DNA of 56,373 nt, taken from contig NBOG01000016.1 in NCBI GenBank assembly GCA_002104535.1, forward strand, positions 1 to 56,373. Reading direction: 5' to 3'. The notes under the pieces were generated by a model. That model was not told where the DNA came from, ran no database searches, and saw only the letters and a list, made by a program, of their open reading frames with translations. The translations under genes were made by a program, and so were the position numbers. Shown here one piece after another: positions 7,192 to 10,784 of this stretch. The stretch comes from Cognaticolwellia sediminilitoris (GTDB lineage Bacteria; Pseudomonadota; Gammaproteobacteria; Enterobacterales; Alteromonadaceae). Position 1 is the stretch's first letter. Each line of letters opens with the position of its first letter.

Positions 7192-8259
7192 CTATAAATG
7201 ATAAGGCTTACTTAAACGGTGTACTGATTCAATAAAGTGACCAGCATGCTCAGGGTTAACATCAGGATGTATACCGTGACCTAAGTTAAATACATGACCT
7301 GTACCACCTTCACCAAATCCTGATAATATTTTTGATACTTCTTGTTCAATACGCGGCAATGGCGCATACAACATTGATGGGTCCATATTACCTTGCAAGG
7401 CAACTTTATCACCTACACGCGCTTTAGCGTTTTCGATATCAATAGTCCAATCAAGGCCAACCGCATCACAACCGGTTGCCGCAATATCTTCTAACCACAT
7501 ACCGCCATTTTTAGTAAATAACGTTACTGGTACTTGGCGACCGTCATTATGACGTGTTAAACCGTCAACAATTTTCGCCATATATTGCAGTGAAAATTCT
7601 TTATAATCTCTTGGAGAAAGTACACCACCCCAAGTATCAAAAACCATAACCGATTGTGCACCGGCCGCAATTTGGGCATTAAGGTATAAAATAACCGAGT
7701 CAGCTAATTTATCTAATAACAAATGCAAAGTCTGTGGCTCTGCGAACATCATTTTTTTAATTTTAGTGAAAGCTTTTGAACTACCACCCTCGATCATATA
7801 AGTTGCAAGTGTCCAAGGGCTACCTGAAAAGCCAATAAGCGGTACATCACCATTTAGTGTTTTCTTAATAGTGCGTACTGCATTCATAACATATTGCAAC
7901 TCGCCTTCAGGATCTGGAATACCAATTTTATCTACATCAGCTTTACAAGTAATAGGACGTTCAAATTTTGGCCCTTCACCGGTTTCAAAATAAAGCCCTA
8001 AGCCCATCGCATCAGGAATTGTTAAGATATCACTGAATAAAATCGCGGCATCAAGCGGAAAACGTCGTAATGGTTGAATAGTGACTTCACAAGCTAAGTC
8101 AGCATCACGACAAACCGACATAAAGTCGCCAGCACCTTTACGCACTTCGCGATACTCAGGTAAATAACGGCCAGCTTGACGCATCATCCATACAGGGGTG
8201 TAATCAACAGGTTGACGCAACAATGCACGCAAATAAGTATCGTTTTTTAACTCAGTCAT
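7192..8259 (-). CDS. hemE: Uroporphyrinogen decarboxylase HemE
   Basis: HemE removes four carboxyl groups from uroporphyrinogen III to give coproporphyrinogen III in haem synthesis, in the cytoplasm. The 355-residue length is standard. Family signatures are [13 protein letters not shown] near the N-terminus, [12 protein letters not shown], and [17 protein letters not shown] in the middle. A good ribosome-binding site (CGGAGAAG) precedes the ATG. It is a single gene with its own terminator; the two candidate small RNA genes lie upstream on the opposite strand. Confidence 0.96.
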
Positions 8260-8787: not shown

Positions 8788-8828
8788 AATACGAAAAAGC
8801 TCGTGGAATATATGCTCTATTAAAGTTG

Positions 8829-8857
8829 TTGCACCGAGAAAAAGCCTTTGCTATAAA
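8829..8857 (+). promoter_or_regulatory. Promoter of small RNA copy 1
   Basis: TTGCAC (8829-8834), exactly 17 bases, then TATAAA (8852-8857). The 34 bases before the -35 box are also conserved in copy 2, which suggests a shared regulator site. Confidence 0.7.
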
Positions 8858-8863
8858 TTGCCT

Positions 8864-8969
8864 GCGCTACACAAAAACAATAATAAAAATAAAGAAATAA
8901 ATTAAAAGAAGCTAGTTTAACTAGACCACATAGCGAGCATTTCAAGCCTTACTTTTGTAAGGCTTTTTT
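8864..8969 (+). ncRNA. Candidate small RNA, copy 1 (about 106 nt)
   Basis: Predicted transcript from about 7 bases after TATAAA to the end of the T run. It has an A-rich unstructured 5' half, a palindromic CTAGTT-T-AACTAG hairpin, a linker and the terminator stem AAGCCTTAC/GTAAGGCTT with loop TTTT followed by T6. No ORF with a ribosome-binding site is visible. The paralogue at 9368-9473 keeps promoter, hairpin and terminator. The layout fits an Hfq-type trans-acting RNA, which is inference. I recognise no known RNA family. Confidence 0.65.
8944..8969 (+). terminator. Terminator of small RNA copy 1
   Basis: A 9-bp stem AAGCCTTAC/GTAAGGCTT with a 4-base loop and six T residues. Confidence 0.85.
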
Positions 8970-9332
8970 ATTGCCTGTTATAAAATTTATTATGGTAACT
9001 TGTTTACAATAAATCAGTCCTAAATAACTACCAGTTAATAGGCTAATCAATACTTCAATTTAGTCTTAACTTTAGCTTCGGCTTTATAAGCTCACTGTGG
9101 TTAGTTATTGGCTGCATTTACAACACCCCCTTTACCTATTCACCCTGCTTAAAATGAACGTGCTTTAATACTCCAGGTCGACATGATTAAACTACACCCT
9201 CCAATTAAATTAATTGGTGCGAATAAAAAGCGGCAATATAAAACCTACGCTAAGCTCATGCTTTAAGTGTCGAATACAAAAACCATAAGTAAATACGAAA
9301 ATATTCGTGGAATATATGCTCTATTAAAGTTG

Positions 9333-9361
9333 TTGCACAGTGAAAGAGCCTTTGCTATAAA
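9333..9361 (+). promoter_or_regulatory. Promoter of small RNA copy 2
   Basis: TTGCAC (9333-9338), 17 bases, TATAAA (9356-9361). The boxes and spacing are identical to copy 1, although the spacer itself differs at three positions. Confidence 0.7.
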
Positions 9362-9367
9362 TTGCCC

Positions 9368-9473
9368 CGCGTTACAAAAAACAATAATAAAAACCAAAAA
9401 ATTAATAAAAAGAAGCTAGTTTAACTAGACCATATAGCGAGCACTTCAAGCCTTACTTCGGTAAGGCTTTTTT
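9368..9473 (+). ncRNA. Candidate small RNA, copy 2 (about 106 nt)
   Basis: Paralogue of the RNA at 8864-8969. The terminator stem is identical and the loop is TTCG instead of TTTT, so loop change with stem conservation points to a functional structure. The A-rich 5' half has diverged most, which could give the two RNAs different targets. It ends about 195 bases before the FAD oxidoreductase start and has its own terminator, so it is not simply that gene's leader. Confidence 0.65.
9448..9473 (+). terminator. Terminator of small RNA copy 2
   Basis: AAGCCTTAC-TTCG-GTAAGGCTT followed by T6. Confidence 0.87.
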
Positions 9474-9668
9474 ATTGCCTGAAATAAAGTAATAGTACAT
9501 TAATTCCCTGCACAATCGCTGCCTAAAAAGTTGCTGCCTGTAACGTAAACGTTCAAATTAACAGGAGTTAAACTAACTGATTTTACTGCTATTTAAGTAC
9601 CGGCCTTGCTGAACAGTCACTTTGCAGCCACAATTTAATTATATGCGTTGAAATTTAAGGCCTGCTTT

Positions 9669-10784
9669 ATGGAAAGTGTTGACGTGATAGTAGTTGGTGC
9701 TGGTGTTGTCGGCCTAGCGGTAGCGGCTAAATTAAGTAAAGCATATCCGCAGGTTTTGATTGTCGATCAAAATATTCATTTTGGTGAAGAAACCAGTAGC
9801 CGCAATAGTGAAGTGATCCACGCTGGTATTTATTACCCTGATAATAGTCTTAAAGCTAAGCTTTGTGTCAAAGGTAAAAAGCTGCTTTATCAATATTGCC
9901 AACAACGTCATATACCTCATGAAAAAATGGGTAAACTATTGGTGGCAAATGGTGAGTCTGAAGAAGCAGATTTAGCTAGTATTTTAACGCAAGCACAGCG
10001 AAACGGTGTCACAGACTTAGTTTGGCAAAGTAAATCGCAATTAGAGCGCTCTACGCCAGCATTAAGAGCATCATTAGCATTACTTTCACCATCGACAGGT
10101 ATTATTGACGTACATAGCTATATGCAAAGCTTGCTTGCTGATGCTGAATCAATGGGTGCCTCATTTGTTGGCCAAACGACGTTAATTTCTGCACAAGCTA
10201 ACTCCAAAGGCTTTAAGGTGTTACTTAACAGCCAGGGCGAAAACATCACTTTACAATGCGCGCTGCTAATCAACTGCGCGGGTTTACATGCAGGAAAGGT
10301 TGCTGAGTCAATTGAGGGCATGCTAAAACGGCATATACCAGCTATACACTACTGTCGTGGTCACTATTTTAGTTATCAGGGAAAGAGTCCTTTCAAACAG
10401 CTTATTTATCCGGTTCCCTCAGCACATGGTTTAGGGATTCACGCGTCGCTGAATATCGCAGGGCAGCTAAAATTTGGCCCTGATACCCAATACATTGACC
10501 ATATCGATTATCAAGTTAGTCCGGCATTAAAAGCAAAGTTTGTTACGGCAATAACAAAATATTTCCCAGGCCTTGATGAAAATAAATTACAGCCTGACTA
10601 CGCTGGAATACGCCCTAAGCTGCAAGCTGAAAATGGCGCTTTAGAAGACTTTGCAATACAAAGTGCAACTGTTCATGGTTTATCTGGGTTGGTTAATTTA
10701 TTCGGCATTGATTCACCAGGGCTGACGTCAAGTTTAGCGATAGCTGAACATGTGGCAGACTTAATCGATGCACAAGTTTCTTAA
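9669..10784 (+). CDS. FAD-dependent oxidoreductase, L-2-hydroxyglutarate oxidase (LhgO)-like
   Basis: A DAO-type flavoprotein of 371 residues. The N-terminal dinucleotide motif is GAGVVGLAVAAKL, followed by the substrate-side segment SRNSEVIHAGIYYP typical of the LhgO/L2HGDH branch. The C-terminus has GLVNLFGIDSPGLTSSLAI, also typical of that branch. The likely reaction is oxidation of L-2-hydroxyglutarate to 2-oxoglutarate, passing electrons to the quinone pool; this is family-based. The start at 9669 is preferred over TTG at 9648 because AAGG lies about 8 bases upstream and the Rossmann motif then starts at the usual distance. Confidence 0.8.
   Translation: MESVDVIVVGAGVVGLAVAAKLSKAYPQVLIVDQNIHFGEETSSRNSEVIHAGIYYPDNSLKAKLCVKGKKLLYQYCQQRHIPHEKMGKLLVANGESEEADLASILTQAQRNGVTDLVWQSKSQLERSTPALRASLALLSPSTGIIDVHSYMQSLLADAESMGASFVGQTTLISAQANSKGFKVLLNSQGENITLQCALLINCAGLHAGKVAESIEGMLKRHIPAIHYCRGHYFSYQGKSPFKQLIYPVPSAHGLGIHASLNIAGQLKFGPDTQYIDHIDYQVSPALKAKFVTAITKYFPGLDENKLQPDYAGIRPKLQAENGALEDFAIQSATVHGLSGLVNLFGIDSPGLTSSLAIAEHVADLIDAQVS

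Follow-up and report, generated by a model that had tools for sequence, protein, structure and literature searches.

Little is known of small RNAs (sRNAs) outside model bacteria. The Qrr sRNAs of the Vibrionaceae occur in more than one similar copy per genome, and are transcribed from a sigma-54 promoter activated by LuxO. CyaR (RF00112), an sRNA of the Enterobacteriaceae, carries an anti-Shine-Dalgarno stretch, is activated by CRP, and resembles the RNA described here in its size and in a two-hairpin layout with a terminator. ChiX is a Class II Hfq sRNA. Another member of that class is MgrR (PMC6239178), homologous sRNA copies within one genome are found in the OmrA/OmrB-type twins (PMC12692685), and sRNAs of marine gammaproteobacteria include the Csr sRNAs Pf1 (PMC9927453), Pf2 and Pf3 (PMC11882849) of Pseudoalteromonas; in Pf1, 21 GGA motifs and one GacA site are putatively assigned (PMC9927453). 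Our literature search, which covered titles and abstract openings, found no published description of the RNA reported below, and the main text of PMC5471319 makes no mention of hemE or nudC.

The window analysed here is a stretch of 56,373 nucleotides from Cognaticolwellia sediminilitoris (contig NBOG01000016.1). A preliminary description had placed two units in the same orientation, 504 bases apart and each with TTGCAC-17-TATAAA, in the gap between hemE (7192..8259, minus strand; Pfam URO-D, 475 bits), a conserved divergent neighbour outside the RNA, and an ORF for a FAD-dependent oxidoreductase (9648-10784, plus strand; Pfam DAO), and we confirm this. The units, of about 190 bases each, form a direct repeat on the plus strand at 8788-8984 and 9292-9488 and are 89% identical over 197 bases, with repeat blocks of 92% (8788-8862/9292-9366) and 90% identity (8873-8984/9377-9488). 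Each begins its series of elements with TACGA-N6-TCGTG, ATGCTCTATTAAAG, TTGCAC, a 17-base spacer and TATAAA; an A-rich stretch comes next, then a hairpin, and finally a terminator separated from the hairpin by unpaired bases.

The conserved upstream element of the preliminary description is present, and takes the form of the inverted repeat TACGA-N6-TCGTG (8790..8805 in copy 1, 9294..9309 in copy 2), a candidate regulator site whose columns are mostly at least 70% conserved across the 60 loci that share this kind of promoter. Next comes a promoter-proximal element, located by a genus-wide site search, which in copy 1 is ATGCTCTATTAAAGTTGTTGC at 8812..8832, overlapping the -35, and in copy 2 lies at 9316..9336. 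The -35 TTGCAC (8829..8834; 9333..9338) and the -10 TATAAA (8852..8857; 9356..9361) are assigned from the sequence, its conservation and a promoter test on homologues, and in copy 1 the -10 has TTTGC in front of it, making it extended -10-like. The predicted small RNAs occupy 8864..8972 and 9368..9476, their 5' ends being placed by the -10 and the conserved GCGCTA start, and the length of about 106 bases given before becomes about 108 nt when counted to the end of the T tract. Within them, hairpin 1 (CUAGU-UUA-ACUAG; 8912..8924 and 9416..9428) is supported by covariation, model alignment and fold, and is followed by an unpaired inter-hairpin stretch, a candidate pairing seed, which is ACCACATAGCGAGCATTTC at 8925..8943 and ACCATATAGCGAGCACTTC at 9429..9447, CATTTC in copy 1 having become CACTTC in copy 2. 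The intrinsic terminators with their T tracts (8944..8969; 9448..9473) are called by model alignment, fold and terminator scan. As first described, they share a stem and differ in the loop: the stem-loops at 8944-8965 and 9448-9469 have nine pairs each, with loops TTTT and TTCG, respectively, and they are the two longest-stemmed of the three terminator-like sites in a scan of the window (shuffle mean 1.1). The earlier statement that the transcripts hold no ORF also stands, as neither RNA has a frame of more than one codon opened by ATG, GTG or TTG. Their folds are modestly better than those of shuffled sequences (z -2.21 for copy 1 and -2.05 for copy 2).

We read the units as ordinary trans-acting, probably Hfq-dependent sRNA genes of a new family that has been doubled in this species, and give this reading a probability of roughly 0.72. 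A trans-acting sRNA is favoured because of the anatomy, namely a promoter of its own, a predicted non-coding transcript, an intrinsic terminator with a U tract and a conserved unpaired stretch. The genome from which the window comes has an hfq gene.

At the gathering score, Rfam has no match anywhere in the window. When the twin region was searched at E up to 10, four matches were returned, to AbsR28 (E 0.023; 21.5 of 50 bits), to asX2 and, in both copies, to CyaR, all of them far below threshold; seven homologous loci searched at E up to 1 likewise gave seven matches, none at threshold. Could the RNA nevertheless be a diverged member of a catalogued family such as CyaR? With the CyaR model the twins reach 19.4 and 19.3 bits (E 1.1; gathering score 47), and one clade of homologues has GACCUCC between its hairpins, an anti-Shine-Dalgarno stretch of the CyaR kind. 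The comparison stays below threshold in both directions, however: cyaR of E. coli K-12 scores 13.5 bits with R2, a covariance model of the present family, where chance alone gives up to 19.5 bits in the window, and it sits between trhP and ogrK, away from hemE or tex. We consider membership of such a family very improbable. That the twins match no known family, as the preliminary description had it, is thus upheld by the empty Rfam result, and homologues in relatives support their being small RNA genes; we rate the RNA as a new family of a known sRNA kind, uncatalogued in Rfam 15.

Two other assignments lack support. The Rfam scans gave no match to Qrr, not even in the twin region with E allowed to reach 10, in keeping with the earlier judgement that the sequence is not Qrr; the analogy to Qrr-like logic that accompanied it is weak, the pair being peculiar to this genome within the genus. 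Besides their one-genome distribution in the genus, the tandem genes may differ from Qrr in promoter type, their family having conserved -35 and -10 elements of the sigma-70 type. A CsrB/RsmY-type RNA was rejected because neither window RNA contains a GGA, whereas that type has many; the missing motif also sets the RNAs apart from Pf1. The OmrA/OmrB-type twins differ as well, in that Omr is not matched in the Rfam scans and the pair described here is found in 1 of 17 genomes.

A generic scan missed the promoters of the twins. A sigma-70 scan of the window listed four promoters, compared with 4.9 in shuffled sequences, and those of the twins were not among them. We nevertheless take the twin promoters to be real, because they are conserved in homologues: TTG followed after 16-19 bases by a -10 stands just upstream of 48 of the 50 homologous RNAs tested (46 short-form or remote and 4 long-form, the window copies included), compared with 2% of positions drawn at random from those loci. 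The further element upstream, which reads CTCTA(A/T)TAAA(G/C) in 60 of 74 loci, is restricted to a single large clade. Across the 17 genomes of the genus, 18 sites match the promoter-proximal element with 0-1 mismatch, all of them at promoters of this RNA, and every site elsewhere, with up to three mismatches allowed, has three. Because close matches occur only at this RNA, no regulon and no named regulator can be read from the element, and we know of no factor that TACGA-N6-TCGTG matches.

We compiled 98 loci of the RNA from 97 genomes, one genome (G114) contributing two. The RNA lies divergently upstream of hemE in 89 of them, a link that holds by construction in the 4 of the 98 that were fetched as hemE-upstream DNA, and no other orientation relative to hemE was seen. 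In the 85 of the 89 where it was measured, the spacing between hemE and the matched stretch ranges from 115 to 1576 bases (median 201). The remaining nine loci show no hemE within the fetched DNA: L085 is truncated by the end of its contig, L093 is the additional copy in G114, L044 and L053 are unexplained, and in five, from families f4 (L119, L124), f13 (L121) and f7 (L211, L213), the RNA lies just downstream of tex and in the same direction. In three of the latter (L119, L124 and L213) it also sits before dsbB, as identified by Pfam. Elsewhere, rsd and nudC are neighbours (L124, L210). The linkage to tex and dsbB and the rsd and nudC neighbours together suggest an old tex/dsbB/rsd/nudC/hemE neighbourhood.

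This range of contexts bears on whether the units are cis elements, i.e. a leader, an attenuator or the 3' end of a neighbouring gene's transcript. Such a reading would suit their position in a gene gap, their ending in a terminator, the mere 170 bases or so that separate the end of copy 2 from the oxidoreductase ORF, and the co-directional placement behind tex at the five tex-linked loci. Yet promoter and terminator are both conserved about 108 nt apart, the promoter is kept at all five tex-linked loci (L119, L121, L124, L211 and L213), copy 1 ends some 680 bases ahead of the next ORF, and the next genes vary among relatives and among families. We regard a cis element as very improbable, slightly more so than a diverged catalogued sRNA, and retain the reading of free-standing genes.

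Beyond the genus, covariance model R2 was searched against 394 genomes of the order and gave matches at E < 1e-3 in families f1, f4, f6, f7, f13 and f20, plus one doubtful match in f21; matches at E 1e-3 to 0.05 were not counted as members. With R3, under stricter filters, 2 of 321 genomes of a class sample match, both from the window's own family, f1. When hemE-upstream DNA of 40 genomes was searched at E up to 10, 19 matches were obtained, and representatives of f11, f18, f25 and f8 gave none. A further search of 36 genomes yielded 23 with a match at E <= 0.2, mostly at chance level. In the hemE-upstream search, four matches in f21 stand at the syntenic place, with bit scores of 29.2, 21.1, 18.8 and 12.7 and E values between 0.0021 and 3, and the f21 RNA (L191-L194) is a possible diverged orthologue. 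In these four loci the gap upstream of hemE has a GCTAGCGAAAA-like start (GCTAGTAAAA in L193), a hairpin and a terminator; three of the four carry a stretch with TTACCCCCTCC. Altogether, sequence comparison shows the predicted RNA gene to be orthologous across the window's GTDB family and several other families of the order, mostly in divergent orientation to hemE.

The window's genome contains only two full copies, its five further matches (E <= 0.1) being just 26-39 bases long. The full unit is found in 17 of 17 genomes of the genus and is single in each of the other 16, so that the twin state is local, and peculiar to the window's genome within the genus. In a sample of 196 genomes of the family, in which four candidates were scored per genome, 72 match in a DNA search (E <= 1e-4), some through short pieces only, and just one other, G114, has two full copies. 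These lie 19.7 kb apart and are each other's closest relatives among the units compared (0.87), which makes a separate duplication probable there. The G114 copy away from hemE (L093; G114:C42:176874-177067) has a full upstream element. At G005:C6:36043, G006:C1:2525913 and G054:C14:17783, a terminator-like piece matching the RNA 3' end is found on the same strand, 8-10.5 kb off.

A mobile or REP-like repeat, or a duplication introduced by assembly, would account for similar units adjoining each other. A scattered mobile repeat with no promoter conservation, which the preliminary description had named as the finding that would count against its own proposal, fails, given two copies here and one in each of 16 others. 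The two full copies differ by 11%, the other 16 genomes of the genus have no second full copy, and the promoter is conserved; the identity of just 89% also disfavours an assembly artefact. We give these readings next to no credence. As for the origin of the twin genes, copies 1 and 2 are nearer to some units of other species (up to 0.917 and 0.922, respectively) than to each other (0.864), and the tree fork between them lacks resolution. Their end branches are long (0.072 and 0.075; median 0.019), whereas the hemE end branch of the same genome is ordinary (0.12; median 0.097). Such long RNA branches with an ordinary hemE fit two histories equally: either both copies changed faster once the gene had been duplicated, or the duplication is old and other genomes have lost it. 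Other long RNA branches are those of G003 (0.11; its hemE branch is long too, 0.21), G049 (0.074) and G015 (0.055).

The preliminary description had looked to homologues for a promoter, hairpin and stem kept with compensatory changes, and the homologues show conserved promoters together with covariation, the number of double-change cells being one that none of 500 shuffles reached. In A3, an unfitted MAFFT alignment of 32 short-form sequences selected by the analyst, 96.0% of the cells in both helices are paired, and double-change cells number 38 compared with 10.4 in shuffled alignments (0/500); double changes are spread over 6 pairs, and 74 of 500 shuffles had as many. In A4, which is model-fitted (77 matches) and therefore leans towards the structure, 99.0% are paired, with 125 double-change cells compared with 31.1 (0/500) and 9 pairs with a double change (1/500). 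The third pair of hairpin 1 illustrates the pattern, being A-U, C-G and U-A in 26, 24 and 22 of 75 distinct sequences, respectively. Unaided, RNAalifold recovered only the terminator from alignment A2, in which hairpin 1 looks partly misaligned and from which 4 of 53 sequences with long linkers (L020, L022, L023 and L070) are omitted. Rows dropped were L086 and L095 (terminator only), L060, L062, L063, L078 and L045, and near-identical rows from the 53-sequence list. Comparison of the homologues shows that a sigma-70-type promoter, a predicted RNA of about 90-110 nt with no usable frame, a hairpin, an unpaired stretch and a U-tract terminator are all conserved.

Many relatives have a short 5' part, to which the window's clade adds an A-rich linker. 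ARN runs in this linker average 5.4 triplets, compared with 3.5 in shuffled sequences, across 76 related loci (a count that omits L085 and in which the linkers of L045 and L051 are shortened), and the window copies have 7 and 6 consecutive ARN triplets, with shuffle fractions of 0.054 and 0.14. The runs clearly exceed shuffles in a minority of loci, the excess being strong in a few genomes and weak in the window copies. An alternative function is conceivable in which the RNA holds a protein, as a CrcZ- or CsrB-like sponge for Hfq or another RNA-binding protein with the ARN repeats as binding sites. In its favour, L020, L022 and L023 have long runs (12, 15 and 19 triplets, a length matched by no more than 1 of 500 shuffles), and their predicted transcripts, of 128, 137 and 149 bases compared with 116 in a sister, are longer by 12, 21 and 33 bases, all multiples of three. 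On the other hand, short forms lack the A-rich linker and for the most part have no ARN excess, yet the hairpin and the terminator persist in them, as does the unpaired stretch in those of the clade; conservation peaks in that stretch, above the linker; and the missing GGA argues that the RNA is not CsrB-like. As a general account, we find a sponge unlikely, if less so than the other alternatives; a protein-sponge role in the A-rich clade is possible. The long-form clade may be compared with the Class II Hfq sRNAs in its A-rich ARN stretch and U-tailed terminator; the ARN stretch is missing from short-form orthologues. In L060, L062 and L063 (G053, G092 and G147) the stretch from promoter to RNA core is lengthened, and in L060 and L062 the GCGCTA start motif follows the promoter and recurs ahead of the core, giving the appearance of a duplicated 5' part.

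The trans-acting reading draws attention to the stretch between the hairpins. In the window's clade it is GACCAUACAGCGAGCAUUUC, with GCGAG present at 68 of 79 loci (terminator-only rows account for two of the 11 misses) and near-invariant surroundings, and the unpaired GCGAGCAUUU-like stretch is likely, on this conservation, to be the seed there. Other clades have GACCUCCACGCUAAAAU, GACUGUACCUUCGCAGAUUAG or CCUGCAGACUGGAAA at this place, unlike the window's clade. If the stretch is a seed, its difference between clades implies that targets have changed. We searched the 17 genus genomes for the 11-mer AAATGCTCGCT, the complement of the candidate seed, and obtained 102 matches, 17 of them in the RNA genes, compared with 25 for the reversed control; the excess may stem from codon usage. 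We read 30 of the 102 match loci, 6 of which are RNA genes, and many of the matches fall within, or antisense to, coding sequence. One, L216 in genome G003, lies 28 bases ahead of a 405-aa ORF, the lone 5' UTR position, and another, L239, lies 76 bases into a 335-aa ORF. No target recurred among these 30 loci: L216 and L239 are unrepeated there, and the rest have no 5' UTR pattern.

We propose the following mechanism. Each unit would be a gene in its own right, encoding a small regulatory RNA and receiving its input by way of TACGA-N6-TCGTG / GCTCTATTAAAG upstream. Hfq would be held by the U tract, with the A-rich 5' part contributing in the window's clade, and the unpaired GCGAGCAUUU-like stretch would pair with mRNAs of genes elsewhere, in an Hfq-assisted antisense action in trans. 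The gene is doubled in this species, and the copies, both of which keep promoter and structure, probably act as partly redundant twins. More tentatively, and at somewhat less than even odds, we suggest an old, order-level family with a fixed chassis, made up of the promoter, the 5' end GCGCUAG...AAGAAGC, hairpin 1 and the terminator, on which the pairing stretch has been exchanged between clades (GCGAGCAUUU; GACCUCCACGCUAA; GACUGUACCUUCGCAG; CCUGCAGACUGGAAA), re-aiming the RNA at new targets; now doubled here, it may be splitting its job.

In several marine genera, among them Colwellia, Cognaticolwellia and Thalassotalea, the evolutionary signature of the RNA is clear, and the covariance model from this work could be used at once to annotate the family. 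With the twins, one copy can be compared with two in a natural setting. If seed exchange on a fixed chassis is true, the family would lend itself to testing how the targets of an sRNA change.
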